The translations under genes and the position numbers were made by a program. The notes beneath the pieces were generated by a model. It did not search any database and was not told the origin of the DNA. It saw only the letters and a program-made list of their open reading frames with translations. 25,992 bases of DNA from a virus, in the IMG/VR virus record IMGVR_UViG_3300042402_001290, positions 1 to 25,992 of that record; one strand, written 5' to 3'. Below are positions 2,067 to 25,992 of the stretch, in pieces. Each line of letters begins with the position of its first letter. Positions within the stretch are counted from its first letter, which is position 1.

Positions 2067-4982
2067 TTATGCTTGTGCTTCTGACCATCTTAGCAACACA
2101 CTTGCTCGTGCTGTACCTGTTGTTGTTCTTACGTTTATAGCTAGAATATCAGGACCGTCTGGATATTTGTAATCGCCACCTAACGGTGCACCTGTTAATT
2201 CTTTCAAATCAGACAAGTCAATTAACCCGTCTGTCGCACCGTCTGTTGTTGATGGCGCTGTATACGCAAAAATTTGTTCTCCGGGCAATGCAAACGTTCC
2301 CGAACTCCAAGTAACGCTTGTTGCAACTTGTGCAAAACTAGGCTGACCTCCAACTGCTTCTGTGTTAAGTGCAGTCCATGTTGCGTTAGAGAAATTCTTA
2401 GGATTTAACACACCTTCAACAACACACGCACCTGAAGATGTACCCGAACTAACCGCAGTACTAAGTGCTTGTAATAACAACTGACTTCTGTTTAATAAAT
2501 CTTTTGATCCCAGTTGTCCTACTGCGCTGTTTGCTACGCTAGGCGCAAGTCTTATTAAGAAGAAGGTTTGTGTTGTTGTGCTTATGTTAATATGAGTACG
2601 TTGATAGTTAAAGAAGTATCCACGATCTTCATCATACCCACCGTCTGCAATCAATGCACTGCCCCAGTGTGTAAGTGTTGGGCTACAAGTGTTACTAATA
2701 ATAATAGCACCTGTATTTGCAGAATGTGTTGTCGCACTCCCGGCTGTTAATGTATTAACGTTACCTTGCTGATACTGTACTAGTGATGCTGCTCGTGTGC
2801 ATCCAGTAAAGTTTCCTGGTCCTGTAGTTGTACTTCTGCCAGTGTATGAAACAATCTCATTATCTATATACAATGTTCCTACATCGGGGAATAGCGTTAA
2901 ATCTGCTGCAGGGACTGTTGTTTGAGACGAGTTCATTGCTGCTGTCAAATATGTACTAGGGCTATCATTTTCAATACTATAACGAATAGGTAAGTTACCG
3001 CTTCTCATGTACGCTTCGTCGTTAATGTTGTTATTTTTAAATCTATGAGCCATCACCCAATGACCATCACTTCCTCTAGCCATGAAGTCGATATAACCTG
3101 CACCATACCAGCTATATTGAATACCCATCATTTGCATTTTATTTAAATCGATAGTATAACCGCTCGGTCCTGTGCCGTCCATATTATCTATGTTAAAGTC
3201 ACCTTGTTTAACTCTAAGTTCTTCTACAAGAGATATACGAACCCCGCTGGCTGCAATGCCTCTATAGTCTGGTGTTACAAATATGTTAGTATCATCAAAC
3301 ACTTGAGTTACGAAGTGAATCATACCTCTAATAACGACACGATCTCCTACTCGCAATTGCTGTGTAAATCGTGTACCATCTCCGGTTATTAAGTTATCGT
3401 TAGGGTTAACAGTAGCAGTTCCTGCAATTTGAAATGTACTACTACGTCTTACACAATATAAATCGATCCCGTTAAATTCCCAGAATATACCGTTTTGATC
3501 GTCAAACACCCCTGCACGAACTGCAGCACCTTGCCAATTTTTAACATATATTTTTGTTTTACGATCTAATGTAGGTGTAGCACTACCAAGACTTGTTGTT
3601 GCAGTGACAGTGAATGTATAGTCGTCTACAATGCTAGCAACTGTATAAGTTCCGTTATACCCTCCAGTAGTCACACCTAGTAATTCAATTGTTGCACCTA
3701 TTTGCAATCCGTGATCTATAGCATCTGTTGCAATAGTAATAGTAGACCCAGAACTTGTACCGCTCGCAGAAACTGTTATAATATCATACTTTGGTTTAAA
3801 TAACGTACCTGTTGACCATACATACCCTTTTCCTGACTGATACCGGAAATACTTCTTAGTTTGTCGAACAACTGCAGCACCATATGTTGGCGTTTTAGTA
3901 GATAAAATAACACCGCCATCCATTGGTCTATGCAAGATTGTTGCATTCGACTGTGCATGTAGTGTCACGCTAGATGGACTGCTTACTGCACCGCCTGCTC
4001 TTGCAAGATATGTAAATGATGTTAAACTAGGTGTTGATAACACAACAAACGGACCAGATGCTAATGTGGCATTAGTACCTGAAGCTACTGTAACGTGTAT
4101 TATTGTTCCTGGTATTAATCCGTGTGGGCCTAGAAAGTTTAATGTAATAGTGCTAGGGTTGCCGCCGCTACTGGTTGCACTGTTAACAGGAATACTTGCT
4201 CCGTTGTAAAATTCTCCACGTCTAACCAATGTTTCGTCAGTTTTCAAACTTTGGCCGTTCGACGTTCCTACTAAACCTCTAGCAAAATATGTTACACTTG
4301 TGCTAGAAGGAACGCTAAAAATCACAAAATTACCATCTGCACGGCTAAACCCAGATATACCTGAATCTAGTCCACTTACGTTCACAACTCCGCCGACTGC
4401 CATACCATGCGCTGCAGTAAACGTAACAGTAATTAAACTATTAGAACTACTAGTAGTTGTATAATTAGTTGTTATTGTTGATACTTCTAAGTCAATGCCT
4501 GGCAATTCATACGCACTAGGATACCCTCTTACAGTTCCGTAGCCTGCCCATTTGGTTGGCTGTAGACCATATTCAAAGTCAGCATCAATTAATGATTGCG
4601 GGTTAGATACTCGCATACGGTCAATTGCATCAGTACCGAATCCCCACGGTTTGATCGACATTGCTTCATGATCTTTACCTTCTACATAGATAGACAATCT
4701 GTCAGATGAACTCATTGTGCTAGTATCTGCAGCAAGAGTTAATGTAGTATATCCGTCGGTTTTATATGATATACTAGGAAATGCTGTTCCGTAATTTCCC
4801 AAAGTAAATGCAGTTGTTGTTCCAGCAAAATCACTATCTGCAAAATTATAAATTATAACGTTATCAGTTGTGTTAGTTATAACTAAAAAGTCTTCTAATA
4901 CGTATCTTCCTGGGATTATAATTGTGCCAGAACCTGCGGCTGCAGGGGAAAATACATATTCACTTATTCGTTTCTTTGCCAT
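2067..4982 (-). CDS. Large virion structural protein with repeated beta-sandwich modules
   Basis: 971 aa, starting MAKKRISEYVFSP, with AGGAAC about 8 nt before the ATG. The first 160 residues (including SIKPWGFGTDAIDRMRVSNP) look like a conserved head domain of large structural proteins in marine T4-like phages; this is from memory of the family, not a search. Three modules of 50-60 aa follow, each with an AHGM/PHGL/DHGL motif, a G-x-x-I/V stretch and an F-x-V/T-Y ending, at about residues 180-235, 275-330 and 410-465. Such modules are common in phage virion proteins. One related copy occurs in the 1978-aa fibre (around 8560-8760). A second globular part (residues 490-720) contains WEFNGIDLYCVRRSS and MMGIQYSWYGAGYIDFMARG. 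No enzyme motif or membrane segment was seen. The likely role is a fibre or baseplate-associated structural protein. Confidence 0.75.
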   Translation of the reverse strand: MAKKRISEYVFSPAAAGSGTIIIPGRYVLEDFLVITNTTDNVIIYNFADSDFAGTTTAFTLGNYGTAFPSISYKTDGYTTLTLAADTSTMSSSDRLSIYVEGKDHEAMSIKPWGFGTDAIDRMRVSNPQSLIDADFEYGLQPTKWAGYGTVRGYPSAYELPGIDLEVSTITTNYTTTSSSNSLITVTFTAAHGMAVGGVVNVSGLDSGISGFSRADGNFVIFSVPSSTSVTYFARGLVGTSNGQSLKTDETLVRRGEFYNGASIPVNSATSSGGNPSTITLNFLGPHGLIPGTIIHVTVASGTNATLASGPFVVLSTPSLTSFTYLARAGGAVSSPSSVTLHAQSNATILHRPMDGGVILSTKTPTYGAAVVRQTKKYFRYQSGKGYVWSTGTLFKPKYDIITVSASGTSSGSTITIATDAIDHGLQIGATIELLGVTTGGYNGTYTVASIVDDYTFTVTATTSLGSATPTLDRKTKIYVKNWQGAAVRAGVFDDQNGIFWEFNGIDLYCVRRSSTFQIAGTATVNPNDNLITGDGTRFTQQLRVGDRVVIRGMIHFVTQVFDDTNIFVTPDYRGIAASGVRISLVEELRVKQGDFNIDNMDGTGPSGYTIDLNKMQMMGIQYSWYGAGYIDFMARGSDGHWVMAHRFKNNNINDEAYMRSGNLPIRYSIENDSPSTYLTAAMNSSQTTVPAADLTLFPDVGTLYIDNEIVSYTGRSTTTGPGNFTGCTRAASLVQYQQGNVNTLTAGSATTHSANTGAIIISNTCSPTLTHWGSALIADGGYDEDRGYFFNYQRTHINISTTTQTFFLIRLAPSVANSAVGQLGSKDLLNRSQLLLQALSTAVSSGTSSGACVVEGVLNPKNFSNATWTALNTEAVGGQPSFAQVATSVTWSSGTFALPGEQIFAYTAPSTTDGATDGLIDLSDLKELTGAPLGGDYKYPDGPDILAINVRTTTGTARASVLLRWSEAQA

Positions 4983-6484: not shown

Positions 6485-6492
6485 TATTTATG
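6485..6492 (-). promoter_or_regulatory. T4-late-like promoter octamer before the 486-aa fibre gene
   Basis: The minus strand reads CATAAATA 30 nt before ATG 6455. It overlaps the stop codon of the giant fibre gene (6488-6490). Confidence 0.4.
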
Positions 6493-9400
6493 CAAGTAGA
6501 AGAGTCTGAACTATCTTATATTGTGTACTATTAGTGCTTACTTGCGTTGCTAATATTCTAACATTTCCGCCACTAATATCAACATCATATGCTGCCAAAT
6601 CGCTTGCACCTGTGTTGACCATAGCGTATTGTGTTGCGCTGGCTGTGGTTCCGTTGTGAACAATTAGCATTTCGGTTATACTTCTAGCACCAGTTACAGT
6701 GTCTCTAGATTGTATTACTACTTTGCCGCCGCCGAACGTAGTAGTACTAAATGATGCAATTGCTGTCTGTGAAGTAGATGTAAGTGTTGCAGTTGCACTA
6801 TCTAAATTGTAAGTGCTGTCAATTCTAATTGCACCATCAACATGTAATTTTTCTGCAGGAGTTGATGTATTGATACCAACATTGCCATTTAATAATGTAT
6901 ATCCAGTTCCAGTCGGAGTTAATGTTATATTTTGATCAGACCCTCCAGCTGTAATAGTAATTGCGCTTGACCCAGTTATATTGCCTACACCAGTTAAGTT
7001 ACCTGAAACGTTTGCACTACCATCGAAGTTTTGACCCCACAGAGTTCTTACAGTTTGTAACGTAGTTGCAGTAGATGCGTTTCCGCTTAATGCTGCAGTG
7101 ATAGTTCCAGCACTAAAGTTTCCGCTTGAATCTCTAGCAACAATAGCACTGTTTGTATTTGAACTTGTTGCTGTTGTTGCTGAATTGGATACTTTACCTG
7201 AAGTTGAAATAGTCGCTAGTTTTGTGTCAACTATACCTGCTGCAGAATTTATGTCTGCGTTTACAATTGAATCAGCAGTTATACCCGCTGATATTGTGAT
7301 ATCAGCACTTCCGTTAAACGAAGTAGCAGATCCGGTCACATCTCCGCTTATGGCAATAGTTCTTGCTGTAGTTAGTGTGTCTGCAGTACCTGCAGTTGCA
7401 ACGTTTAGATTTGAGACTCGTGTGGTTGATGTAATTACAAATGGTGCTGTGCCAGTTGCAATGGTATTTGTTAATTGGTTGTTCATATTAAGCGTAGTTA
7501 CGCTAGTAAGAGAACCTGTAACGTTAGCAGAACCATTAAAGTTTTGTCCCCACAGTGTTCTAGTGGTTGTTAGTGTTGCTGCACTTCCTGTTGTGTTTTG
7601 ATTACCGGTAGTATTAACTCCTGGCAAATCAATATTAGCTGACCCATCAAAACTCACACCACCGATTGTTCTTGCAGTCTGTAGTGTAGTTGCAGTGGTT
7701 GCATTTCCGCTTAGTGCTGCAGTAATTGTACCTGCTGTAAAGTTACCACTTGCATCTCTGGCAACAATTGCACTGTTGGTATTTGTGCTAGTTGCAGTCG
7801 TAGCGGAATTGGATACTTTGCCGGCGGTCGAAATAGTTGCTAGCTTTGTATCAGCAATCGCTGCAGCGGAATTTATATCTGCGTTTACAATTGAATCAGC
7901 GGTAATTGCTGCTGATATTGTGATATCAGCACTTCCATTAAATGATGTAGCAGATCCGGTTACATCTCCACTTATTGCAATGTTTCTTGCTGTAGCAAGT
8001 GTAGTTGCAGTAGTTGCGTTCCCGCTTAGTGCTGCGGTAATAGTCCCGGCACTAAAGTTACCTGACGAATCACGAGCAACAATTGCACTGTTGGTATTTG
8101 TACTAGTTGCAGTCGTAGCGGAATTGGATACTTTACCTGAAGTTGAAATGGTTGCTAGTTTTGTGTCAACTATACCTGCTGCTGAGTTGATATCTGCGTT
8201 AACAATCGAATCAGCAGTTATAGCTGCTGATATTGTGATATCAGCACTTCCGTTAAATGATGTTGCAGTACCAGTTACATCTCCACTTATTGCAATTGTT
8301 CTTGATGTAGCAAGTGTAGTTGCAGTAGATGCGTTACCTACTAGCGCACCTCTAAAGTTTGCTGCTTGAATATCAGCAAGAGCAAAAGAGACATGACTAG
8401 TATCAATAAACGGACTTACGTCAGGCTCCGGGGTATAGCCTTTAAACGCTTTAAAATAACCGTCGGAAGCGTCACGGAAGAATCCGCCGTGCTGATAGGT
8501 AGTATCGTAATAACCGAAAGAAAATCCCAAGTCAGGGTTAGCATTTGTTCTTGCCCGTGCAGTTCCGCCCGAAACATATGAACCGGTTGCAGTATTTGCT
8601 ATAGTAAACGAATTCGTTGCAACCGCAGTTATAGTTTGATTTGATAAGTTATACGCAGACGGATCTACACCAATAATACTTACAGACATGCCTGGTGTAT
8701 AATTATGAACTTCGTTAGTAGTATAAACAACGTTTGTACCATCTCCTACTACATTGGATATAGTTGTTAATATCGCCTGATTCAGATAGATCATATTATC
8801 AGTTACTGATAAATTAGCAGCGGTAGTAGTGGTAGTTGTACCACCTACAGACAAGTTACCGTCTATAGTAACATTACCATCGAACAATGCATTATTAAAT
8901 GTCACGTTTGCAGTAGTTGAAACGTCTTGTCCGATTGCAATTGTCGGAGTCGCACTTTCTCCTGTGTTGTTTGATAATGTTACACCTGTGCCTGCTACAA
9001 GACTTGCTACGTAGTTACCAGTTGTGTCAGTTCCAAGGGCAACACTGTCTGCAGCAATTGTTGCGGTGATAGTAATATCAGCTGATCCATTAAACGAAGC
9101 AGACCCGCTTAGATCTCCCCCAAGAGAAATAGTTCTTGATGTTGCAAGTGTAGTTGCAGTAGTTGCGTTCCCGCTCAATGCTGCGGTGATAGTCCCTGCA
9201 GCAAAATTACCACTACTATCTCTAGCAACTACTTTTGATGATGTATTTGCACTTGTTGCGTCGACTGCTAGTGTTAGTCCTGCGCCTTCACTTCCGCCGT
9301 TACCGCCGGTGATGTATGATCCATTGGTTATGCTTGCTACGTAATTGCCTGTTGTATCAGTTCCGAGGGCAACACTATCTGCTGCAATAGTTGCTGTTAG

Positions 9401-12400
9401 TGTTACGTTTGCACTTCCGTCTATGCTTACGTTACCAGTTAGATCGCCGCCTAGTGTAATTGTTCTAGAATTTTGCCATGCACTTGCTGTGGTTGCATTA
9501 CCACTTAGTGCTGCAGTGACAGTTCCTGCACTAAAGTTACCACTGCTGTCACGAGCAACTATAGCACTATTTGTGTTTGAACTAGTGGCTGTAGTAGCTG
9601 AGTTTGAGACTTTACCTGATGTTGATATTGTAGCTAGCTTTGTATCAGCGATTGCAGCACTTGAGTTAATATCTGCGTTTACAATTGAATCAGCGGTAAT
9701 TGCTGCTGATATTGTGATATCGGCACTACCATTAAATGATGTTGCAGTACCAGTTACATCTCCACTTATTGCAATTGTTCTTGATGTAGCAAGTGTAGTT
9801 GCAGTAGATGCATTTCCGCTTAGTGCTGCGGTAATTGTTCCGGCGCTAAAGTTACCTGACGAATCACGAGCAACTATAGCACTATTTGTGTTTGAACTAG
9901 TGGCTGTTGTAGCTGAGTTCGATACTTTACCAGCTGTTGATATTGTTGCTAGTTTTGTATCAGCTATTGCGGCACTTGAGTTAATATCTGCGTTTACAAT
10001 TGAATCTGCTGTAATGCCTGCTGATATTGTGATATCAGCACTTCCGTCAAACGAAGTAGCAGATCCGGTTACATCTCCACTTATGGCAATTGTTCTTGCT
10101 GTAGCAAGTGTAGTTGCAGTAGATGCGTTACCACTTAATGCAGCGGTAATTGTTCCTGCTGCGAAGTTACCAGACGAGTCGCGGGCAACAACCTTAGATG
10201 CTGTATTTGTAGTAGTTGCGTCGACTGCTAGTGTTAGACCAGCGCCTTCGCTTCCTCCATCGCCTCCGGTGATATAAGATCCGTTAGTGATACTTGCTAC
10301 GTAATTGCCTGTTGTATCTGTTCCTAATGCAACACTGTTTGCAGAGATAGTTGCTGTTAACGTTCCGTTTGCTAAATCAGTCAATGTTACACTACCACTT
10401 AAATCACCTGCAAGTGTAATAGTCGGATCAGGTTTATTTAAAATGTCTGCCCATTCAACGTTTGCATCCACTGTTCCTTTTGTTCCGCTAAACACTTCGC
10501 TTGTGTTAGTTGCGTCAGGTATAAAAGTAAATTTACCAGTACTATCATCAAAACCAAAAAAGCCAACCTTTGCACTAGTTCCGTTATGCCAACGAAATTC
10601 AATGCCTCTGTCTTTGTTATCGTCAGTTGATGGAGCAGTATCTCCGCCTAATGTAATAACAGGATCATCTATTGTAGTTACTGTTGAGTTAACTGTGGTT
10701 GTAGTTCCGTTAACTGTTAAATTGCCAGTGACAATTAAATTATTACCAACTGTAACATCATTTGGTAATCCAATAGTTATTGTCTGACCACTAGCAACTG
10801 CTTCTATTTCATTTGTTGTTCCGGCAATAGTTAACGTTTGTGTACTTAAATTTACAGTGCCAGTTCCAGATGTTCCTGCAATATTCAATGTTTGTGCAGA
10901 AGACGCAGAATCAACATATGCTTTGATACTTTGTTGTGTTGCAAGAGCTGTTGCACTATTGCTAGCCATATTATCTTCGTCTAATATACTACTAATTGCA
11001 GTTGTAGAATTAATAGTTAAAGTAGACGACACAGTTAATGCACCTGTTAATGCTAATGTCGAACCGTTAAATGTTAAATTAGAAGTATCTTGCAAACGGC
11101 CAGCAGTTCCTACATAAACTATTCTATTAGAAACTAAATCTGAAACTTTAAGGTTTGCTACTGTTGTTGCACCATTTACATCTAATGTTCCTGCTACCAG
11201 TGTATTACCCGAAGTAGCATTAACTGTAAACTTGTTTGTAGCAATATCAAAGTTACCATCGATGCCAGTAGCACCAGTTACATCTAAAATACCAGCAATT
11301 GCGGTATTACCACTAGTTGCATTAACTGTAAACTTGTTTGTAGCAATATCAAAGTTACCGTCTATTCCAACTGCACTTGTTACATCGAGTGTACCTGCGA
11401 TTGCAGTATTACCTGAAGTAGCATTTACTGTAAACTTGTTTGTAGCAATGTCAAAGTTCCCGTCAATGCCGGTAGCGCCAGTTACATCAAGTGTTCCTGC
11501 AACTGCAGTATTACCACTAGTTCCATTTACTGTAAACTTGTTTGTAGCAACATCAAAACTTCCGTCTACACCTAATGATCCGGTTACATCTAAAGCACCT
11601 GCAATAGCAGTATTACCTGATGTTGCGTTTACTGTAAATTTATTAGCACCAATAACAAAAGTAGTTGCATCAAAAGTTAAATTTGCATCATTTTCAAGTT
11701 CGCCGTCAACACCGACAATAACGATTCTATTATTCGTTAAATCGCTTACTTTGAGTGTACTAGCAATTATATCTCCTGTTCCATTCGGAGTTATATTAAT
11801 ATTACCATTAGTGTTTGTGCTAGTGATAGCATTACCATCTATTCTAATATTATCGACGTTAAGTTGACCAGTGACATTTGCTGTTCCAGATAATGCTAAT
11901 GTAGATCCATTAAATGTTAAACTTGAACTATCTTGTAATTCTCCACTTGTGCCTGCATAAACAACACGATTTGCAGTTAAATCGGTTATACTAGCACTTG
12001 CTAGTGTTGTTTGACCAGTAACACCTAATGTTCCTGCAATCGCAGTATTACCTGAAGAACTTGTAATTACAAATTTGTTTAATAACGCACCAAATCTAAA
12101 ATCACCGTTTTCGTCTAATTGTAATCTATGACTTCCGTTAGTATAAAAATCTAAGTCATTATTATTTGCACCCGGCGATGTTTCTGCAATGATGTATGTG
12201 TTACCGTCTACATCTTTAACACCGCCAAGACTTGTCCAGTTTGTGTTGACATATCCTTCAAATGATTGTAATGTTGAGTTAAATCTTATCTCACCCGAAT
12301 TAGGAGTACCGGGACGTTCAAATGTAGTACCTGCAGGAATCCTAATACTTCCGTTATTATTAATTACAATAGTTTCGTTACTAGAACTAATTCTATTTCG

Positions 12401-12424
12401 TTGGTGGTCAAAATTTAATGCCAT
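6488..12424 (-). CDS. Giant repeat-rich tail fibre / virion adhesin
   Basis: 1978 aa, almost wholly Ser/Thr/Ala/Gly/Asn/Ile. Residues about 250-420 carry five tandem 34-aa units (NKFTVNATSGNTAIAGTLDV type). Residues about 760-1780 carry five longer units containing ADSIVNADINS, DTKLATIS, SNSATTATS and AIVARDSSGNF, spaced 105 aa where adjacent. Two non-repetitive islands interrupt these: DRGIEFRWHNGTSAKVGFFG near 10550-10620 and DLGFSFGYYDTTYQHGGFF near 8480-8545. They look like paralogous globular fibre domains. Near the C-terminus, VGINTSTPAEKLHVDGAI (about 6840-6900) is a motif common just before the terminal domain of phage fibres. No endosialidase-type chaperone domain is evident. The start is ATG 12424 (MALNFDHQRNRIS), with AGAG about 7 nt before it and an AATAAATA octamer at 12449-12456. 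Role inferred: long host-binding fibre. Confidence 0.8.
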   Translation of the reverse strand: MALNFDHQRNRISSSNETIVINNNGSIRIPAGTTFERPGTPNSGEIRFNSTLQSFEGYVNTNWTSLGGVKDVDGNTYIIAETSPGANNNDLDFYTNGSHRLQLDENGDFRFGALLNKFVITSSSGNTAIAGTLGVTGQTTLASASITDLTANRVVYAGTSGELQDSSSLTFNGSTLALSGTANVTGQLNVDNIRIDGNAITSTNTNGNINITPNGTGDIIASTLKVSDLTNNRIVIVGVDGELENDANLTFDATTFVIGANKFTVNATSGNTAIAGALDVTGSLGVDGSFDVATNKFTVNGTSGNTAVAGTLDVTGATGIDGNFDIATNKFTVNATSGNTAIAGTLDVTSAVGIDGNFDIATNKFTVNATSGNTAIAGILDVTGATGIDGNFDIATNKFTVNATSGNTLVAGTLDVNGATTVANLKVSDLVSNRIVYVGTAGRLQDTSNLTFNGSTLALTGALTVSSTLTINSTTAISSILDEDNMASNSATALATQQSIKAYVDSASSAQTLNIAGTSGTGTVNLSTQTLTIAGTTNEIEAVASGQTITIGLPNDVTVGNNLIVTGNLTVNGTTTTVNSTVTTIDDPVITLGGDTAPSTDDNKDRGIEFRWHNGTSAKVGFFGFDDSTGKFTFIPDATNTSEVFSGTKGTVDANVEWADILNKPDPTITLAGDLSGSVTLTDLANGTLTATISANSVALGTDTTGNYVASITNGSYITGGDGGSEGAGLTLAVDATTTNTASKVVARDSSGNFAAGTITAALSGNASTATTLATARTIAISGDVTGSATSFDGSADITISAGITADSIVNADINSSAAIADTKLATISTAGKVSNSATTATSSNTNSAIVARDSSGNFSAGTITAALSGNASTATTLATSRTIAISGDVTGTATSFNGSADITISAAITADSIVNADINSSAAIADTKLATISTSGKVSNSATTATSSNTNSAIVARDSSGNFSAGTVTAALSGNATTASAWQNSRTITLGGDLTGNVSIDGSANVTLTATIAADSVALGTDTTGNYVASITNGSYITGGNGGSEGAGLTLAVDATSANTSSKVVARDSSGNFAAGTITAALSGNATTATTLATSRTISLGGDLSGSASFNGSADITITATIAADSVALGTDTTGNYVASLVAGTGVTLSNNTGESATPTIAIGQDVSTTANVTFNNALFDGNVTIDGNLSVGGTTTTTTAANLSVTDNMIYLNQAILTTISNVVGDGTNVVYTTNEVHNYTPGMSVSIIGVDPSAYNLSNQTITAVATNSFTIANTATGSYVSGGTARARTNANPDLGFSFGYYDTTYQHGGFFRDASDGYFKAFKGYTPEPDVSPFIDTSHVSFALADIQAANFRGALVGNASTATTLATSRTIAISGDVTGTATSFNGSADITISAAITADSIVNADINSAAGIVDTKLATISTSGKVSNSATTATSTNTNSAIVARDSSGNFSAGTITAALSGNATTATTLATARNIAISGDVTGSATSFNGSADITISAAITADSIVNADINSAAAIADTKLATISTAGKVSNSATTATSTNTNSAIVARDASGNFTAGTITAALSGNATTATTLQTARTIGGVSFDGSANIDLPGVNTTGNQNTTGSAATLTTTRTLWGQNFNGSANVTGSLTSVTTLNMNNQLTNTIATGTAPFVITSTTRVSNLNVATAGTADTLTTARTIAISGDVTGSATSFNGSADITISAGITADSIVNADINSAAGIVDTKLATISTSGKVSNSATTATSSNTNSAIVARDSSGNFSAGTITAALSGNASTATTLQTVRTLWGQNFDGSANVSGNLTGVGNITGSSAITITAGGSDQNITLTPTGTGYTLLNGNVGINTSTPAEKLHVDGAIRIDSTYNLDSATATLTSTSQTAIASFSTTTFGGGKVVIQSRDTVTGARSITEMLIVHNGTTASATQYAMVNTGASDLAAYDVDISGGNVRILATQVSTNSTQYKIVQTLLLA
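7080..10150 (-). repeat. Long repeat units of the giant fibre (315-nt period where adjacent)
   Basis: Five coding repeats share the ADSIVNADINS...AIVARDSSGNF block. They form a cluster of three (about 7.1-8.3 kb) and one of two (about 9.5-10.1 kb), separated by related but diverged units (GGDLSG...SVALGTDTTGNYVAS) and a globular island. Near-identical DNA includes 7765-7823 against 8080-8138 and 9551-9604 against 9866-9919, each pair exactly 315 nt apart (105 codons). The high DNA identity suggests recent duplication or gene conversion. Confidence 0.85.
11160..11670 (-). repeat. Tandem 102-nt coding repeats in the N-terminal part of the giant fibre
   Basis: About five consecutive units of 34 codons, with cores NKFTVNATSGNTAIAGTLDV and GIDGNFDIAT. 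For example, the same gtaaacttgtttgtagcaa string starts at 11226 and again at 11328. The last unit degenerates. The period is an exact multiple of three, consistent with coding repeats that vary fibre length. Confidence 0.85.
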
Positions 12425-12552: not shown

Positions 12553-15249
12553 TTATAAAATTTTTCTTCTTCGTATTTGTCTGCGAGGGTAGACTGATCC
12601 AGAAGCTGGGCGACCTTTATAAATTTTTGGAAAACTTGGCTTGTTATTAGGTCTCATGTTAGGGAACCACAACACTTTATTTGCAGCACCTTCTAAAGAT
12701 GTGTTAAAATTATATGTTTCAGCCGGATCATCGGACATTTGCATCGGCTTACTAATAACATTTAACAGTTCTCTTGCTTGTTTTTGTGTCATATCTGGAT
12801 ATTTTTCTAACATACAGGCAAGAATACCGCATACTTGCGGGCAGGACATGCTCGTTCCACTAACCTTACTATAAAAATTACCGCCACCACGATCAACTTT
12901 TGTTCTAGAGGAAATATCAGGCATTGCACTTTGTATAAAGTTACCGGCGGCGAAAATATCAACATTTTGTCCAAAGTTACTAAAATCAGCTTTTCGTTCT
13001 TTATTATTCCTATGTGTTAGGTTTAATGCACCAACAACGATGACTGCACTGTCTGTGCCGTTCCCCGCCGCTGCCGGAGTTTGCGGTCGATGATAATAAA
13101 CGTTAATGTTTGAGGTTGTTGTATAATAATTGTTATAATAAGGATGATCTGAACTATACATCGGCACATAACCGTTGCCTGCACTAGCTACAACTATAAT
13201 ACCATCACTTATAGCATCAATAATATCTGCTTCAACTGATAACGCTCGTCCAGTTTGAGTGCCTCCTGTGTTGTATCCAAATCCTCGCATGTCTTCCGAG
13301 GTAAACAGGTCATAAATAAGAGTTTTAGCTTCATTTTGTTCCCAAGTCACGTCAAATGTATTTGGTGTATTTTCAAAAAATCTTACTTCCCATCGCATTT
13401 TTGGATCGGAAGGAGTATTATAAAAGCCATTAGGGCTTCCTTCCCATACAATTCTAAACTCCCTATTTGGTGTTACGCCTGTTGTACCGTACCAAATACT
13501 ATAACATCTTCTGAAGGTGCGATCCGGCGGCGAACTGAAACCGGAACCCATCATAATTTTAGGTATAGCGGGCGACGACGGTGTCACACTAGCAATTGGG
13601 TGTGTTAATGCAGAACCTAAAGTTATATAACTGTCTGAAGTTACCTGAATTTGACTATACGTTTGTCCTAAATATTGAATATTAAAGGGAAGATTTAATG
13701 TCCAAAAACCATAACTATTAGATCCGCGAGTTGGTGTACTACTCGTTGTTAATCCAGAAACATTGGCAATTGGAGTAAACGGAAGTACTTGAACAGTGCC
13801 TGATTGATCAGGCGCTGGCGAAACAGTTTCTTCATTAAATTCTTGCATTTCTAATGTTTCGTCAAAATCACTAAAGATTTGACCACGCTCGCCTGTTGTA
13901 ACTACCCACGAGACATCAAATTCAATTTCATCACTGTCTGCCGGATAAGTTTCAACAGTATAACTGATAGAAACTTGTCTAGAAGAACTAAAGCCAAATC
14001 CACCTGTTATTTCGACATCAATCTCAGGTCCGTTAACTTGAGTTGAAATCATTGAACCGTTATCAACAATTCTTCGCAATATTATATAACTGTTTGCACT
14101 ATTGCAACTTGCACGTATTCTACTATTCTGCGAAACATCGCAGGGTGCTAATACTGTAACTTCATATTCGTCGGCAGGATCAGTTTGTGTAAAGCTAAAT
14201 ACCTGATTTGGTATTTTTTCCCATGTTTCTGGCCATGCAACCATTCTGTCAGTAACTGAACTTGTAGTCCCCGACGTTGTAAATCTAGTTTTACTATTTG
14301 CCGGATCGCCTGATTTATCAACAATTTGTGAGGTTGCACTGTATGCTCCATAAAATCCATTATAAGCAAAGCCAATTAGACCTGGAGTTGTATATCTTGT
14401 ACCATCATACGTAACACTTTCAATTTGACTTAGTTCTACTGTTCCACCGCGAATCCCCCAACTATTGTTTACAATTGTTGGATTTTTTCTTCCTGTCAAC
14501 GGGTTAATTGGTTTATTATTGTGAAATGCTCTAATATAGTCGTATGCTAACGTTGTATCTATGCTATTATTAACGTCATTTTCGCCAAACCTTAGTGCTA
14601 GAAAATATATGTTTGCATCTTTTGCCCAGCCTTCTTGACGACCTACTGCTGTTCCTGCACAATGTATATTGTGAAAATTACTGCTAGTGCCACGCTGTGC
14701 ATATGTTCTTCCAACATGAGGCAAATCTCCGACAGCACTAGCATGTTGCCACCAGTTATAATCTACAACTCTAGAAACTCCGTTATCATCTAAAAATTCT
14801 GAATGGTTTGGTTCCCATGCTTGGTCGTCTAAAATTATAACATCTACATTTTTACCTGTGTAAGGAAATCGAATATCTTGTGTGATGACATCTAGGTTAT
14901 TATCAAAGTTAGTGTTGTTTTCTCCAATATAATGTCTCCATAAACCCCACTGATTGTCTGATCCATCGTTTGATGATGAACGGGCCCATCTTCCGCCTCG
15001 TGTATTCATCAGTACCGGAAGTTCATCTGTTACTATTTCTACGAATTCTACTCTTGTATCTTGTTCGACTGCTAACGCTTCTTGCGGTGTTAGCATATAA
15101 TGTGTAACACGACTTGTTGGTTTTCTCAAATAAACGTCAACAGCCCTATCAGGGATAGTTATAGACCCTCCCTCTGTTTCCATGTCATTATAAAAATTTT
15201 CTAAGTCATGATAGTTTTTTAATACAACAGCATACTTGTGTAAGTTCAT
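12553..15249 (-). CDS. Subtilisin-family (S8) serine protease, virion-cluster encoded
   Basis: 898 aa. The subtilase triad is visible: Asp141 in VIILDDQAW, His193 in NFHNIHCAGTAVG, and Ser800 in SGTSMSCPQVCG, with oxyanion Asn692 in VVASAGNG. NNSWG near residue 262 and VVGAL near 740 also fit the fold. The first 80 residues end with YMLTPQEALAVEQDTRVEFV, which resembles the C-terminal part of an I9-type inhibitor propeptide, so autoprocessing is plausible. About 400 residues sit between NNSWG and the oxyanion Asn, including a beta-sandwich-like stretch (LPFNIQYLGQTYSQIQVTSD). The C-terminus is very basic (RRQIRRRKIL). There is no obvious signal peptide. A strong GGAGG lies 7 nt before the ATG, and the gene follows the 354-aa fibre gene by 1 nt. 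Protease identity is firm. A virion-borne role, such as processing fibres or host surface proteins, is inferred from position. Confidence 0.9.
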   Translation of the reverse strand: MNLHKYAVVLKNYHDLENFYNDMETEGGSITIPDRAVDVYLRKPTSRVTHYMLTPQEALAVEQDTRVEFVEIVTDELPVLMNTRGGRWARSSSNDGSDNQWGLWRHYIGENNTNFDNNLDVITQDIRFPYTGKNVDVIILDDQAWEPNHSEFLDDNGVSRVVDYNWWQHASAVGDLPHVGRTYAQRGTSSNFHNIHCAGTAVGRQEGWAKDANIYFLALRFGENDVNNSIDTTLAYDYIRAFHNNKPINPLTGRKNPTIVNNSWGIRGGTVELSQIESVTYDGTRYTTPGLIGFAYNGFYGAYSATSQIVDKSGDPANSKTRFTTSGTTSSVTDRMVAWPETWEKIPNQVFSFTQTDPADEYEVTVLAPCDVSQNSRIRASCNSANSYIILRRIVDNGSMISTQVNGPEIDVEITGGFGFSSSRQVSISYTVETYPADSDEIEFDVSWVVTTGERGQIFSDFDETLEMQEFNEETVSPAPDQSGTVQVLPFTPIANVSGLTTSSTPTRGSNSYGFWTLNLPFNIQYLGQTYSQIQVTSDSYITLGSALTHPIASVTPSSPAIPKIMMGSGFSSPPDRTFRRCYSIWYGTTGVTPNREFRIVWEGSPNGFYNTPSDPKMRWEVRFFENTPNTFDVTWEQNEAKTLIYDLFTSEDMRGFGYNTGGTQTGRALSVEADIIDAISDGIIVVASAGNGYVPMYSSDHPYYNNYYTTTSNINVYYHRPQTPAAAGNGTDSAVIVVGALNLTHRNNKERKADFSNFGQNVDIFAAGNFIQSAMPDISSRTKVDRGGGNFYSKVSGTSMSCPQVCGILACMLEKYPDMTQKQARELLNVISKPMQMSDDPAETYNFNTSLEGAANKVLWFPNMRPNNKPSFPKIYKGRPASGSVYPRRQIRRRKIL

Positions 15250-20431: not shown

Positions 20432-22105
20432 TTATAATCCTTCTTGACCTGCCGGTGGTGTCGGTGCATTTTCTTCACCGCTAATTGGACTACCTTCTTC
20501 TGCTGGTGTCTCTTCTGGCGTCATGTCTCCTGCAGCCATGTCTGTATCAAATCCTCTAACCCCAACACTACCTAATCCAGGTGTGCTTTCACTATCAGGA
20601 GTTGTTCCGGGCTTATTCTCTTCTTCCCACATACGTTCGTTTTCTAATATTTCTTCGTCAGTTAAGCCTAAGTATTTGGACAATACAAAACGTCTGCTTA
20701 GATATGGAACTGGTTCTAAGTTTGCAAATACGTTAGCACGGGCAGCATGAACTTCAATTTCTTTATACTGACTAAATGATTGCGGCTCCGCAAACTTAAG
20801 TTCAAAAATACCACTGTCGATGTTAATACCACGATTTTTCATAAAGAGCTTAAATTCTTTATCAAACACAGGGCTAACAATATTTTGCAATCTCTTACAA
20901 TATTGGTTAAATCTGTGTTCTTGAATAAACGCAGTTCCTACTTTACCGTCAACATATGTTGCTGTGCCATCGTCTGGACCGGTTGGCAAATAGCTTGTAG
21001 GAACACGTAATGCTCTTAACATTTTATTTGTAAAATATCTTAAGTCGTCAATTTCGCCTAAGTTAGTGCCGCCTGGTAATACTTCAACTTTGCTACCACG
21101 ACCTTCTGCAGTCTGAGCAAAGAAATAATCTTCCATAATGCTTAACGGGTTGTATGCTGCATCCATAATAGTAGTGCCGCCGCCAGTTCTGCTTGGAATA
21201 CGCTTTTGGTGAATTTCATTTTTTACACGCTCAACAAAGCCCATTGCTTTGTTTGCAGGCATGTTACCTACGTCAACATAAAACACACGGCGTTCTGGTG
21301 CTCTTTGAACACGATAGATAATAATACTATCTTCTAGCAATTCTTTTTGCTTGTAAGTTTTAAAGATTGGGTCTAATATACTACTACCAAATGGATAATC
21401 ACTATCCATACCTTCGGTTAATGCGCTATGTACAACATGTGTTGCATCAACACTGTATTCTTGTATATTGCCAAAGTTTGATTGATAGTTTGCTCCGTTG
21501 CCTACAGGTGTTCTGTCAACAACTTGTGATCTAACTGTACTATTAACTGTACTGTATGATTGTGCAAGTTGAACAGGTTTACTAACTGTTTTGTCTTTAA
21601 TATTAAGGTTAATGTTCTTTAAAACATATTGCTCAGGTTCTTTACCTTTTGCTTCGTTAATAATAACTTTACTTACATCAACTGGATTTACATAATACAA
21701 TTCCCATGTTTCGGGGTCACGTATAAAAAACTGATCACCATACTTTATAATGTTGCGGAATGTTCTAAACATTCTGCGATCCCAGTCTTGTAAGTTGTTC
21801 CATTGCTGTAGTGTTTGCTCTAATATTCGAACTTCACTTTCAGTTGCGTCTTCTTTGAATCTAAACTCAAAAGGAGAATTTGTATCTTCGTTTAATTGTG
21901 TGCTAAATTCTGCAATGATATCAAGTGCAGCATTTACTTCGCTGTCCATGTCCATTTGATCGTACTGTGCATAACGCTCTACACGGTTTGGTTGCCCGCT
22001 ATAAACTTCAGGTAGCCAGCTTTGAAAGCGACTAGAACTGCTAGGTTTAGAGCTATGCGAGTCTTGACCTTGATATACAGTAAAATGCTTTTTCCATCCA
22101 GCCAT
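20432..22105 (-). CDS. 20: Portal vertex protein (T4 gp20-like)
   Basis: 557 aa from ATG 22105 (MAGWKKHFTVYQG); T4 gp20 has 524 aa. The portal family is recognised from DMDSEVNAALDIIAEFST near residue 53, RTFRNIIKYGDQFFIRDP near 110-125, YRVQRAPERRVFYVDVGNMP near 265, and LPGGTNLGEIDDLRYFTNKM with LRVPTSYLP near 345-370. The last 60 residues are acidic and Pro-rich, probably a disordered tail. It forms the dodecameric ring for DNA packaging and neck attachment. An in-frame TTG at 22108 is less likely as start: GGAG lies 8 nt before the ATG. The ATG overlaps the endonuclease stop as TGATG, so translation may be coupled. Confidence 0.96.
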   Translation of the reverse strand: MAGWKKHFTVYQGQDSHSSKPSSSSRFQSWLPEVYSGQPNRVERYAQYDQMDMDSEVNAALDIIAEFSTQLNEDTNSPFEFRFKEDATESEVRILEQTLQQWNNLQDWDRRMFRTFRNIIKYGDQFFIRDPETWELYYVNPVDVSKVIINEAKGKEPEQYVLKNINLNIKDKTVSKPVQLAQSYSTVNSTVRSQVVDRTPVGNGANYQSNFGNIQEYSVDATHVVHSALTEGMDSDYPFGSSILDPIFKTYKQKELLEDSIIIYRVQRAPERRVFYVDVGNMPANKAMGFVERVKNEIHQKRIPSRTGGGTTIMDAAYNPLSIMEDYFFAQTAEGRGSKVEVLPGGTNLGEIDDLRYFTNKMLRALRVPTSYLPTGPDDGTATYVDGKVGTAFIQEHRFNQYCKRLQNIVSPVFDKEFKLFMKNRGINIDSGIFELKFAEPQSFSQYKEIEVHAARANVFANLEPVPYLSRRFVLSKYLGLTDEEILENERMWEEENKPGTTPDSESTPGLGSVGVRGFDTDMAAGDMTPEETPAEEGSPISGEENAPTPPAGQEGL

Positions 22106-22650
22106 CAAAGTTCTCCGTTACTGTTTTGTTTTTTTATTTGTGCGGCTCTTCTCGCAGAGCTCCATGGTTTTCCTTTATGAGCAAACGGTTTTTCTTTGAT
22201 TTTTTCTAATCGTTGTTTTCGATACTCGGGATCGTCCCACATATTTTGTACTACTTGTCGAATTTTTTCAGCATGTTCTAAAGTTTTTGTGCCTTTATAA
22301 TTTTCAGTTGTTGTCTTTTTTACGCCAGTTAAGGACTCGGAAATGCGTTGTTTTGTTTCTGGTGCATGATGCCAGTTAGAATTTCCTGTTTTACCGCCTC
22401 TTTGTAAATTTAACAGTGGACCTGTGTTTTTACATTTCATACCATAATGTTCAATTAGATATTTTTCTTTTTCCCATGCTTCTTCTTGAGTCATATTATC
22501 TTCTATAATAATATAATTTATGTCAGGAACAGATACATAAAGATGTTTTTCTATTGCTCTTCTTCCTTTTCCCATGCCAACATAATATGGATTATTATCA
22601 TAATCCAAATATATATAGACATAATAATTTTTTGGTGTCTTCCATGACAT
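22105..22650 (-). CDS. Free-standing GIY-YIG homing endonuclease
   Basis: 181 aa from ATG 22650 (MSWKTPKNYYVYIYL). The open frame extends 45 codons further upstream, but that part overlaps the end of the preceding gene and looks non-coding, while AAGAGAT lies about 8 nt before the chosen ATG. The GIY-YIG core is Y10-V-Y and YYVG (22-25), with Arg30/31 in GKGRRAIEKH, a Glu in EEAWEKEKYLIEHYG (57-70) and Asn81 in LLNLQRGG. After it come DNA-binding NUMOD3-like motifs: HHAPETKQRISESLTG (94-109) and KGKPWSSARRAA (about 159-170). Such genes spread by cutting alleles that lack them. Here it sits between the tape-measure-like gene and the portal gene without breaking either. An AATAAATA octamer at 22679-22686 may transcribe it. 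Confidence 0.88.
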   Translation of the reverse strand: MSWKTPKNYYVYIYLDYDNNPYYVGMGKGRRAIEKHLYVSVPDINYIIIEDNMTQEEAWEKEKYLIEHYGMKCKNTGPLLNLQRGGKTGNSNWHHAPETKQRISESLTGVKKTTTENYKGTKTLEHAEKIRQVVQNMWDDPEYRKQRLEKIKEKPFAHKGKPWSSARRAAQIKKQNSNGEL

Positions 22651-22678
22651 GTGTTTATATCTCTTTTGTTTTGTAGTA

Positions 22679-22686
22679 TATTTATT
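22679..22686 (-). promoter_or_regulatory. T4-late-like promoter octamer before the homing endonuclease
   Basis: The minus strand reads AATAAATA 29 nt before the ATG at 22650 and 2 nt past the stop of the tape-measure-like gene. Confidence 0.4.
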
Positions 22687-22687
22687 C

Positions 22688-24391
22688 TTATTGGAACATA
22701 GCACCAGATCTAATGGCAGCTGATAATTCAGCCATAATAGCTCTATTTTCTGCAATATTTTCTGCTGTTCGTGCAAAAAAATCACCTAAAGCACTTCTTA
22801 CACCTTGACCAATAGCGTCGGGTGTCAGTGCGTCAGTTGCAGCAACACCACTGTCACGTATTATCGACGCAAATTCAGCAAACTGGGCAGTCGCTGCTTG
22901 AACGCCTGCAGTGCCATTTACGCCTATTTCCATTATACGCTGCAATGCCTCTATACTTTCTGTTTCATTTAAAGCACTGGTTCCTGAAGCGGTTAATATA
23001 GCGTTGAACATCGCTGCTTGCATTTGTTGTATCATTACTTCTGAATCTTGTCTCATGCCTGCTATTGTTAAATTCGACGATCTTACTTGGCCTGCTGCTT
23101 GATCAAATGCGGCAATTAGTCCGGCCAATGATGTATTCATTTGATCTACTACAGGTGGGGTAGCTTGCATTGCCGCAGTTAATGCCATAGTAGCACCTTC
23201 TACTCCGCCGCCTCTACTAAGTATTCCTAATTGTTGTTTTTGAGTGTCATTCATATTGTCAAACCCAATGGCCAACTGACTCATTATTGCTTGAGCCATT
23301 TGAGCATCCCCTGCATTTGCAGCGGCTGCAGCTTGTTCAATAGCCCCATAAATATCCAAACCTGCTACGCCTTGTGCAACGCCTGCAAATTCTGCAAATC
23401 CTTCATTGCGTACAGCTGGATTCATGCCTAACATCTGATTTGTCAATCCTAATTGCATCATTTGTTGCACAGCCGGGCCTAATTCTGTCATTGCCATTAC
23501 AGCGGTTCTTGCAGCATTTGCTTGATCATCTTGTAACCCTGCCATAGCGGCAGAAAAATCAGCGTTACGATCCATGTCCATTCTTGCTCTTATACGAGCG
23601 TGAACGTCTTGGCCTGTGAGTCTTGCTACTGCCATTTGCTGCATATATTGTTCTTTCAATGCTTCAGACATTTGGTCAGCATTGAGCTTTTGCATTTCCA
23701 TGGTACTAGTTAACTGTCGACGGATTTCTAACTCGTCTATCATATACTGTGCTGCTTCTGTAGAAGTCATGCCTAAATAACCCACGTCTTCTGTGTTTTT
23801 TCGTAGAGCAGCAACAAACTGAATAAGCCTATTTGTTCCCTCAGTGGAATTTTTACCCAAACTAGTAATAGTTGTTCCGAATGTACTGACATATGCAGTT
23901 ACTTGTTCTAGCCCTAAACCAACTGCGGCTGCATCATTTCTCAAATCAATCAGAGACGTACCTGCATTAGCACCAACCCTCGAAAGTTTTGCCATACTCT
24001 CAGACGCTTGTTCTACTATTCCTACTAGAGATCCTAATACCGAACCGATCTTTTCCATTCCAAACCCGGCAAACATAGATCGAACTGCTTCTTGTATTCC
24101 TGCATTAGCTATTAAAGCAGAAAAACCAGATTCTATACCAGTAAAAAGTCGGGTAAGACCCGACTGTTCGGATGCAGGACCTATGTTAGCGGCCGACGAT
24201 GCTAGTCTCCCAGATACACTGCCGCCCGCCAGGTTGTTTAATGCTGTTACTTGCGCCTGTGTTCCGGTTTGAATTATAGCAGTTTGTTGCTTCAATTCAG
24301 TTAACATTTGCTGAGAAGTATAATCCATTGCGAAATCGGGAATTTCGATTCCAACTGCAACACCTCCGACTGGTATATTAATTATTGCCAT
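22688..24391 (-). CDS. Tape-measure-like tail protein (possible T4 gp29 counterpart)
   Basis: 567 aa, Ala/Gly/Met/Gln-rich and mostly helical, close in length to T4 gp29 (590 aa), the tape measure/hub protein. A hydrophobic Gly-rich segment lies near residues 100-130 (FAGFGMEKIGSVLGSLVGIV). It is followed by a helical repeat region containing YVSTFGTTITSLGKNSTEGT, then RLIQFVAALR and YLGMTSTEAAQYM, which resembles a block seen in tape-measure proteins of large myoviruses. No lysozyme or peptidase motif was seen. It is divergent from, and adjacent to, the putative tail assembly chaperone at 24448, as expected for tape-measure genes. It begins a leftward transcript with a perfect TATAAATA octamer 39 nt before the ATG. 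Direct homology to gp29 is not shown; another internal virion protein is possible. Confidence 0.55.
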   Translation of the reverse strand: MAIINIPVGGVAVGIEIPDFAMDYTSQQMLTELKQQTAIIQTGTQAQVTALNNLAGGSVSGRLASSAANIGPASEQSGLTRLFTGIESGFSALIANAGIQEAVRSMFAGFGMEKIGSVLGSLVGIVEQASESMAKLSRVGANAGTSLIDLRNDAAAVGLGLEQVTAYVSTFGTTITSLGKNSTEGTNRLIQFVAALRKNTEDVGYLGMTSTEAAQYMIDELEIRRQLTSTMEMQKLNADQMSEALKEQYMQQMAVARLTGQDVHARIRARMDMDRNADFSAAMAGLQDDQANAARTAVMAMTELGPAVQQMMQLGLTNQMLGMNPAVRNEGFAEFAGVAQGVAGLDIYGAIEQAAAAANAGDAQMAQAIMSQLAIGFDNMNDTQKQQLGILSRGGGVEGATMALTAAMQATPPVVDQMNTSLAGLIAAFDQAAGQVRSSNLTIAGMRQDSEVMIQQMQAAMFNAILTASGTSALNETESIEALQRIMEIGVNGTAGVQAATAQFAEFASIIRDSGVAATDALTPDAIGQGVRSALGDFFARTAENIAENRAIMAELSAAIRSGAMFQ

Positions 24392-24447: not shown

Positions 24448-25290
24448 ATGAACAATCCGCTAGAGAATTATTACAGAAACAAGGAAATATATATCAAATT
24501 GCCATCAGGCGGTAAATGGTATAAAACAAAACCAAAGTTATCTGTATCGGGAGAAATAGGCATTATGCCTATGACTACAAAAGATGAAATGATATTAAAG
24601 GTCCCGGACAGTTTATATAACGGAGAATCGTTATTCATTGTAATAAAAAGTGTAGCACCTGATATTGAAAATCCGTATGATGTTGCTATACCTGATGTTG
24701 ATGCAATTCTAATTGCAACACGAGCAGTTACACAAGGTAAAGACATGAATGTTTCTGTTAAATGTCCAAACTGTAATGAAACAACAGACTATGCAATAGA
24801 CATACCGTCGATGTTGAGTAAAATAAAAACTATCAACGATGATGTTGAAATTGAGATTAAACACTTAAAACTTAAATTAAAACCAAACACACTGGCAATC
24901 ATGACAGCATCAAGTATAGAAAGTGTAGAAGTGGCTAGACTCAGAAAAACTATAGTCGATTTAGAAGCTAAGAATGATTTTGAAAATTCTAAAAAATTAG
25001 TTGAACAGAGTCTGAATCGAATTGCGGCTGCAAATCTAGCAGTAATCGCAGACATGATCGAATCAGTAACTACGCCAGACGGGACCGTAGTTACTGAGTA
25101 CAAAGATATACTTCAATGGGTTCAGAATTTAGACTTAAAAAGTAACGAAAGAATTAAAAAAGCCGGAGAACATTTAAATGTAAGTGGTATCCCAAGAACA
25201 CACACGTTTACATGCAGTAACGAGTTGTGCAACCATACGTTTGACGCAAGTGTTGAAATTAACCCCACTTTTTTTTTCACTCCGAAATAG
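24448..25290 (+). CDS. 26: Baseplate hub / tail assembly protein, T4 gp26-like (short, 0-frame form)
   Basis: 280 aa. The N-terminus (IKLPSGGKWYKTKP, then SGEIGIMPMTTKDEMIL and SVAPDIENPYDVAIPDVDAI) matches the T4-type baseplate protein family that includes gp26. Cys106 and Cys109 (CPNC) together with Cys256 and Cys261 (CSNELC) look like a split zinc ribbon around a helical insertion (residues 155-200). T4 gp26 (208 aa) is needed for baseplate hub assembly. The gene is divergent from the tape-measure-like gene. The ribosome binding site is weak (AGG about 9 nt before ATG). Near the end of the frame is a run of nine T residues, after which it stops at TAG 25288-25290; a -1 shift there would extend the protein (see 25278-25523). 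Confidence 0.85.
   Translation: MNNPLENYYRNKEIYIKLPSGGKWYKTKPKLSVSGEIGIMPMTTKDEMILKVPDSLYNGESLFIVIKSVAPDIENPYDVAIPDVDAILIATRAVTQGKDMNVSVKCPNCNETTDYAIDIPSMLSKIKTINDDVEIEIKHLKLKLKPNTLAIMTASSIESVEVARLRKTIVDLEAKNDFENSKKLVEQSLNRIAAANLAVIADMIESVTTPDGTVVTEYKDILQWVQNLDLKSNERIKKAGEHLNVSGIPRTHTFTCSNELCNHTFDASVEINPTFFFTPK
25263..25290 (+). other. Putative programmed -1 ribosomal frameshift window
   Basis: The -1 frame is closed by TAA at 25260-25262, and the 0 frame ends with TAG at 25288-25290. The 28 nt between them contain nine consecutive T residues (25269-25277), read in frame 0 as ACT TTT TTT TTC. T TTT TTC fits the X XXY YYZ slippery heptamer. No clear downstream stem-loop is visible. A homopolymer sequencing error could give the same picture. 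Confidence 0.65.
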
Positions 25291-25523
25291 CAACAACAAA
25301 TGATATTTCTAAAGTCATCTTAAATTATGAGAAGATGTCTAAAGGTATACGCAAAGAAATTTTTGACATTGTGTTATATTCGAGCGGAGCATTTAATATA
25401 TCAGAACTATGGAATGTTCCATTAGGATATCTAAAAGAAATCACACAATCAATTATTGATAAAAACGAAAAAGAAAAACAAGCATTAGATAAAGCTAAAG
25501 GTATATCATCAACAATGTTTTAA
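25278..25523 (+). CDS. -1 frame extension of the gp26-like protein (gp51 / GT-type tail chaperone domain)
   Basis: From codon CAC 25278 this frame is open for 81 codons to TAA 25521-25523; fusion at the slippery site gives about 358 aa. The sequence (SKGIRKEIFDIVLYSSGAFN, then ISELWNVPLGYLKEI) has the pattern of tail-assembly-chaperone C-terminal domains: a short helix, an IS-x-L-W/Y-x-x-P block and a charged helix. The only internal ATG (25335) has no properly spaced Shine-Dalgarno sequence, and no GTG or TTG start exists upstream in frame. Expression by frameshift is therefore more likely than independent initiation. In T4 gene 51 follows gene 26, so this may be a reduced gp51 counterpart; that homology is inferred. 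If not frameshifted, the gene would be a 62-aa ORF at 25335-25523. Confidence 0.65.
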   Translation, partial: HSEIATTNDISKVILNYEKMSKGIRKEIFDIVLYSSGAFNISELWNVPLGYLKEITQSIIDKNEKEKQALDKAKGISSTMF

Positions 25524-25539
25524 TTTTGTTATATACTTT

Positions 25540-25601
25540 ATTCGATTAGCTACGCTAATCATCAATCTTCGCTTAGTAGCTCGATTGAATTATTTTTTTT
25601 T
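25540..25601 (+). terminator. Rho-independent terminator of the rightward gp26-like operon
   Basis: ATTCGATTAGCTA (25540-25552) can pair with TAGCTCGATTGAAT (25577-25590) using two G-U pairs and one bulged C. A nine-T run follows at 25593-25601. A competing perfect hairpin, GATTAGC-TAC-GCTAATC (25544-25560), and CAATC/GATTG pairing can form within it. It lies 16 nt past the stop at 25521-25523, and the T-run fixes the orientation as plus. Confidence 0.8.
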
Positions 25602-25992
25602 ATAATCTTTTATGATTATATATTACCTGGAGTTTCAGTCGCACTTAGCTTGTTACAGCTAAATGCGACCGAACAAGGCATTACCCATCGTCCACTAGCG
25701 CAACGTTATAGTGCAACCTTATACAGGCAGAGGCGGTTGTGCTTTACCCCTTTACACACTGCTTACAACGCAGAAACACCGACTGCAATAACGTCTACAG
25801 TATCGGCTATCCGTGGGATCCAATGGCACAGGAGAGCCCACTCATTTGGTTTGTTTCCCTCAGCAAGGTCCGTTGGCTAAACACCTAGTGTCGCCTCCTC
25901 AATGCTTTTATATGGAGGGTATGTCTTTTTGATTTTGGAGAGATTCTAATAGAGCCTTGGATTTGCCAACACGGATGTCGATTATGCCGTTA
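25602..25992. ncRNA. Candidate large structured non-coding RNA, truncated by window end
   Basis: No convincing reading frame is present. GC rises (47% in 25741-25800), unlike the AT-rich flank. Stems seen: 25638-25650 with 25657-25669 (GTCGCA, one C-A mismatch, TTAGCT, 6-nt loop); AGTGCAACC 25710-25718 with GGTTGTGCT 25735-25743 (two G-U pairs); a CTGC/GCAG hairpin near 25759-25773; CCGACTG 25779-25785 with CAGT and CGG 25798-25806 (AT bulge); GTGGG 25813-25817 with CCCAC 25837-25841; CCTCC 25894-25898 with GGAGG 25914-25918. Many local stems in a non-coding tract next to a terminator suggest an ornate RNA of the GOLLD/ROOL kind found in phages, but no family was recognised. G-U evidence is split: the 25710 stem favours plus, the 25638 stem favours minus, so the strand is open. 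Confidence 0.5.

Follow-up and report, generated by a model that had tools for sequence, protein, structure and literature searches.

The slip site of the lambda chaperone gene G/GT is GGGAAAG. For the chaperone genes of T4-like phages, Vladimirov, Gautam and Davidson (Virology 2022, 566:9-15) are credited with having recognised the genes and are said to have found frameshifting conserved in several groups, with T4 itself reportedly using genes 26 and 51 instead. A review of 2016 still has T4 as an exception to the conserved frameshift (PMC5009743), and another source counts T4 gp26 and gp51 among the hub assembly chaperones (PMC3004832). Two further sources treat tail assembly chaperone (TAC) genes of T4-like phages: one states, citing Vladimirov, Gautam and Davidson, that some of these phages have two TAC genes, a short and a long one, in place of the frameshift (PMC10885494), and the other credits Vladimirov et al. 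2022 with the polyT slip sites in T4-like TAC-N genes (PMC12846349). Publication of the T4-like case in 2022 makes the present work, in its central idea, a confirmation and not a discovery: the link between T4 hub proteins and the general TAC scheme, which the original prediction put forward, is already in print (PMC10885494, PMC12846349).

Here we describe a locus that adds one member to the known T4-like frameshifted TAC genes. It lies in a 26-kb virus record of an uncultured phage; the whole stretch of DNA analysed, 25,992 nucleotides, is referred to as the window. With other T4-like TACs the gene shares PF12322, the logic of a short and a long form, and a poly-T site where the short form ends (PMC12846349). 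T4, by contrast, has two paralogous genes, while the window has a T9-extended site and a divergent tape-measure-like gene. The likeness to G/GT of lambda and to other long-tailed phages (PMC5009743) is one of gene architecture – a short chaperone, a -1 extension near the 3' end and an overlap right before the zero-frame stop – whereas in lambda the slip site is not poly-T and the gene order is different. The TAC genes of Pakpunavirus/Vandenendeviridae and of Andersonviridae also have a -1 frameshift, but these are other phage families and their invariant motif, GTTTTT, is one T shorter (PMC12846349).

The chaperone gene and its overlapping frame

The features of the locus are as follows.

24448-25290, plus strand: zero-frame product (TAC-N), T4 gp26/gp51-type, 280 aa; PF12322 2e-15, phrog_150 7.5e-16
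25260-25262, plus strand: TAA closing the -1 frame upstream and setting the start of the overlap; same TAA in contigs L001, L126 and L128
25269-25278, plus strand: slip site, T9 followed by C; T9 exact in contigs L001, L125, L126 and L128
25278-25523, plus strand: -1-frame extension (TAC-C), 81 aa and stop; homologues among the -1 tails at 17 other loci
22688-24391, minus strand: gene next door, divergent, for a structural protein of 567 aa that is tape-measure-like; position as in RaK2, 121Q, PAC2 and Phosso

The 280-aa protein belongs to the PF12322/phrog_150 family, its match to PF12322 (T4_baseplate) exceeding the curated cut-off (57.5 bits vs 24.5); phrog_150 is a baseplate hub family. 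The 3' end of the zero frame reads ATT AAC CCC ACT TTT TTT TTC ACT CCG AAA TAG: the T9 occupies 25269-25277, a T TTT TTC heptamer stands in zero-frame phase at 25272-25278, and a second in-phase heptamer, T TTT TTT, at 25269-25275. Near the end of TAC-N there is thus an in-phase slippery heptamer, and the -1 frame is open throughout it. The two frames overlap by 28 nt and the -1 frame stops at TAA 25521-25523. The 81 post-slip residues start at His, preceded by F277, so that residues 1-277 plus the extension make up a 358-aa TAC-NC. Past the slip, the first ATG of the -1 frame lies at 19 codons and the first GTG at 31, and no Shine-Dalgarno sequence was found at a usable distance from the -1-frame start codons in the window: the extension is conserved and has no start of its own. 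Neither the Pfam nor the PHROGs HMMs gave anything useful for the -1 tail of the window. The end of the zero frame and the opening of the -1 frame, the 28-nt overlap with its T9 and T TTT TTC, and the want of a usable start for the 81 residues are all as the original prediction had given them.

We consider it very probable that the locus is the TAC gene of a T4-related myovirus, encoding a short TAC-N and a -1-frameshifted long TAC-NC. The slip itself – its occurrence, its efficiency and its ribosomal nature – we infer, as we do the roles and contacts of the proteins. The majority of ribosomes would read 24448-25290 and give TAC-N; a minority would slip one base back on the U-run, with tRNA-Phe re-pairing on U UUU UUC, bypass the zero-frame stop three codons on, and give the 358-aa TAC-NC, which would carry an extra helical TAC-C domain encoded by the -1 frame to 25523. 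If lambda is a guide, the tape-measure protein would be coated by TAC-N in large numbers and by a little TAC-NC; the two forms would also bring in the tail tube protein, and would depart before the virion is completed.

Close relatives: error, chance and internal starts

The window is a metagenomic contig and homopolymers are error-prone: with an assembly or homopolymer error at the T-run, the true run length would give one frame and a single fused gene. However, T9 is exact in four further contigs. One of these, L001 from IMG/VR, encodes a protein 95% identical to that of the window and shares its T9 and its frames; the other three (L125, L126 and L128) were recovered through a search with the conserved non-coding stretch that adjoins the window gene. 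Across the chaperone locus the DNA of the four is 66-92% identical to that of the window (66-70% for the latter three), and in all four the phase of T9 is identical and a -1 tail of 81-84 aa is open; T-run and frame relation, which the original prediction had proposed to follow in homologues, are kept. In L125, L126 and L128 AACCC-N-ACTTTTTTTTTC is kept exactly, and the zero-frame stop comes three codons past the slip site. Moreover, cultured-phage isolates, whose run is T6, have their frames in the same relation. Assembly error is in practice ruled out, and the chance we would assign to it is negligible.

Between the tails of the window and L001, the substitutions number 9, 0 and 17 at the first, second and third codon positions of the -1 frame, as expected if that frame codes for protein, and an open run of this length has a probability of 0.0004 by chance (mononucleotide shuffling). 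T9 runs are not unusual in the AT-rich window (2 observed vs 1.7 expected): T9 alone is not rare, and it is phase and protein, both conserved, that carry the weight of the evidence. For the frame arrangement, the comparison of these sequences is decisive.

A further possibility is that the tail is made as a small protein of its own, by an internal start or by coupling to the zero-frame stop. It is annotated in this way, as small genes, in 121Q, Phosso and XbC2, and in Atu_ph07, Phosso and 121Q an ATG overlaps or touches the stop. Yet the junction has no nearby ATG in the window, L001, PAC2, RaK2, Vibrio 2.275, L125, L126 or L128. In the window and its close relatives the -1 frame has its first ATG 19-49 codons downstream (three of the five have it 43-49 codons in); a TTG three codons downstream is another possible start in two cases, and a Shine-Dalgarno sequence at a workable distance from the -1-frame starts is absent in all five close relatives examined. 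The conserved tail, furthermore, starts at FF, upstream of the annotated starts, and the same domain is already fused in gp51 of T4, RB43 and Aeromonas 31. A separate tail protein is therefore a most improbable reading.

Conservation of the slip site

At least 69 phage records contain a homologue of the window protein. Junctions were read in Atu_ph07, PAC2, SCTP-2, Phosso, RaK2, 121Q, Vibrio 2.275, XacN1, RAS14, Kaldavass, GAP32, CBB, XaC1, Munch, BF, XbC2 and Hallingskeid, in the IMG/VR contigs L014/L015, L037, L038 and L041, and in the cyanophage S-RIM8. In all of them Phe-Phe is encoded as T TTT TTC (T TTT TTT in XacN1 and RAS14). The zero frame stops 1-14 codons past Phe-Phe, in sequence that varies across lineages, and the -1 frame opens close upstream of Phe-Phe and encodes, over this wide sample of junctions, FFR..LL..PEEI...MP..ER..., a homologous domain of 66-86 aa.

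The slippery T TTT TTC/T stands at the same Phe-Phe in 20 of 20 -1-type loci, which clustering at 40% identity sorts into 10 clusters. Of 42 other Phe-Phe pairs in these records, 9 (~21%) have a slippery context; taking clusters as independent, the probability that ten of ten would be slippery through codon bias alone is ~2e-7. Two phages were left out of the counts: Campylobacter phage WX1, where a frameshift tail was sought at the gp26-like gene and none was seen, and the uncultured phage LR756511, where the tail begins at an ATG lying past the zero-frame stop.

Long A/T runs are a known substrate of polymerase slippage. RNA polymerase slipping on T9 would produce T10 mRNAs that are read into the -1 frame, with the same product as a ribosomal slip: this is the only serious rival, and we give it a small but appreciable probability. 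T9 is longer than a heptamer calls for, five contigs of the window's clade retain it, and polymerase slippage has been raised for U7 (PMC4066793). All other -1-type lineages, however, have six or seven Ts at the slip site – too short for efficient slippage by the polymerase, and yet the in-phase heptamer is kept – so the T6 sites oppose its generality. Strong RNA stems that lie a few bases downstream in several lineages (z of -5.8 in Atu_ph07, -6.4 in L014, -4.1 in XacN1, -3.7 in Phosso and -2.5 in L001) also favour the ribosome. In the window itself no downstream RNA stimulator stood out, the stability there not being significant (z -0.44); a stem at 25313-25340, downstream of the slip site, is also present in L001.

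Relation to T4 gp26 and gp51

T4 gp26 and gp51 both match PF12322 (8.8e-64 and 3.9e-52, respectively) and align to each other; on the 282 columns of phrog_150, gp26 covers 14-235 and gp51 covers 13-280. These alignments identify the two as paralogues, with gp51 as the long form: a gp26-type domain plus a C-terminal tail. The original prediction, in which a frameshift joins gp26 to gp51, has to be revised in this respect, for the -1 part is probably the counterpart of the last ~50 residues of gp51 only, and gp51 is itself a gp26 paralogue. The programmed -1 slip that it envisaged, giving a short and a long gp26-type form on the lambda G/GT scheme, is supported; the gp26-gp51 fusion falls away.

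The tail of S-RIM8 provides the connection to gp51. With phrog_634 ('baseplate hub assembly catalyst') it gives a match of 2e-30, and the same family is matched by the C-terminal parts of gp51 from T4, RB43 and Aeromonas 31. As direct profile comparison of -1 tails with T4 gp51 yields a weak match (P 0.002, probability 14%), the link between the -1 tail and the C-terminus of T4 gp51 rests on this cyanophage bridge. S-RIM8 (Sullivan et al. 2010, PMC3037559) resembles the window in its poly-T junction (AGT TTT TTC GGA TAG) and its -1 tail (L032:4660-4857), but is annotated as two genes: the annotated 'gp51' (4723-4860) is what remains of the gp26 -1-frame tail when the gene is called from an internal ATG. 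Cyanophage gp51 is without its first ~200 residues, for which the relevant passages of the S-RIM8 paper offer no explanation (PMC3037559); the -1 frame accounts for their absence.

T4 gene 26 keeps FF, encoded as G TTC TTT, and gene 26 of Aeromonas 31 is without FF: in both phages, where the long form has a separate gene, the slippery context has been lost from gene 26. Small 'hypothetical' genes of jumbo phages (phrog_18291) correspond to the same C-terminal chaperone domain.

A second clade with the tail in the +1/-2 frame

In a homologous chaperone clade the tail lies in the +1 (equivalently -2) frame, and this is true of 87 of 87 readable loci. The clade takes in Microcystis phage Mel-JY01, the Flavobacterium immuto phages, RM378, SP-15, LIS04, GXN1 and the uncultured phage LR756508, together with about 80 IMG/VR contigs (locus labels L002, L007, L028-L031, L034, L035 and L042-L121). 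A typical junction is TTT YTT TGG CCT GAC, read as F[FL]WPD in the zero frame and as FFGLT in the shifted frame. The -1 tails and the +1-frame tails are homologous (hhalign 96.7%, E 3.5e-10), and this clade is possibly less known than the -1 shift.

We lean towards the view that one family has come by its long form along three routes: a poly-U -1 shift (the window, jumbo phages and a cyanophage), a +1/-2 shift (the Flavobacterium/Microcystis/Bacillus-phage clade), and duplication plus fusion in T4. The direction of the shift would have switched within the family, and in the window's clade T9 could add slippage by the polymerase to that by the ribosome.

Structure and gene order

The AlphaFold model of the window's TAC-N has a pLDDT of 87.5, and its structure matches in BFVD are T4-like hub proteins, with E down to 2e-22. 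A Foldseek search of TAC-N against the PDB gave no match with E <1. Of the 824 PDB chains aligned, 2ob9, the HK97 tail assembly chaperone, came third (Z 7.0, rmsd 5.2, 100 of 107 residues), at a score also reached by unrelated helical proteins. The model of the -1 tail is of low confidence (pLDDT 66).

The TAC gene adjoins the tape-measure-like gene, but in divergent orientation; the expectation that it would lie just before the tape-measure gene was not borne out in the window, where 22688-24391 is on the minus strand. The 567-aa product of this neighbour has weak similarity to its counterpart in PAC2 (E 2e-5). Its identity as a tape-measure protein is weak; it would be the likely client of the chaperone. 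The classic order is found in relatives: in SP-15, immuto and LIS04 the genes run sheath, tube, TAC, tape measure, which puts TAC between tube and tape measure, the position of lambda G/GT.

Other features of the window

A T4-type head module is on the minus strand, with portal (phrog_213, 4e-116) and, by position, putative protease, scaffold and capsid genes. Between the tape-measure-like gene and the portal lies a GIY-YIG homing endonuclease ORF (22105-22785, minus strand; phrog_314, 4.7e-16). L001 is without this gene, and its tape-measure-like gene and portal are ~36 nt apart. The MSWK start of the ORF resembles the start of the L001 portal, which suggests that the portal start may have been duplicated upon insertion.

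The non-coding stretch that adjoins the chaperone gene (25531-25910, ~380 nt, likely minus strand) is next to a GIY-YIG-like ORF. Where aligned, it is 94-99% identical in five IMG/VR contigs (L124-L128), while in three of the five the chaperone locus is merely 66-70% identical. Folded on the minus strand it has a z of -2.7; it had no match in Rfam or in the phage collection, and an Rfam search of the window returned nothing. The stretch is a candidate structured RNA or recently mobile element.

Two large proteins are also encoded on the minus strand. One, of 898 aa (12553-15249), lies among structural genes and has subtilisin-like motifs, HCAGTAVG and GTSMSCPQVCG, that were read by eye. The other, of 1978 aa (6488-12424), contains many near-identical repeats (NKFTVNATSGNTAIAGTLDVTG; SGNASTATTLATARTIAISGDVTG) and is probably a tail fibre or adhesin.

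Implications

The analysis settles the identity of the overlapping frame and provides a corrected gene model for phages in which the locus is annotated as 'gp26' accompanied by either a hypothetical protein or a short 'gp51'. Families of unknown function, phrog_18291 among them, become the C-terminal part of a TAC. If the three routes to the long form are truly those of one family, then the evolution of recoding direction would be testable within a single gene family.
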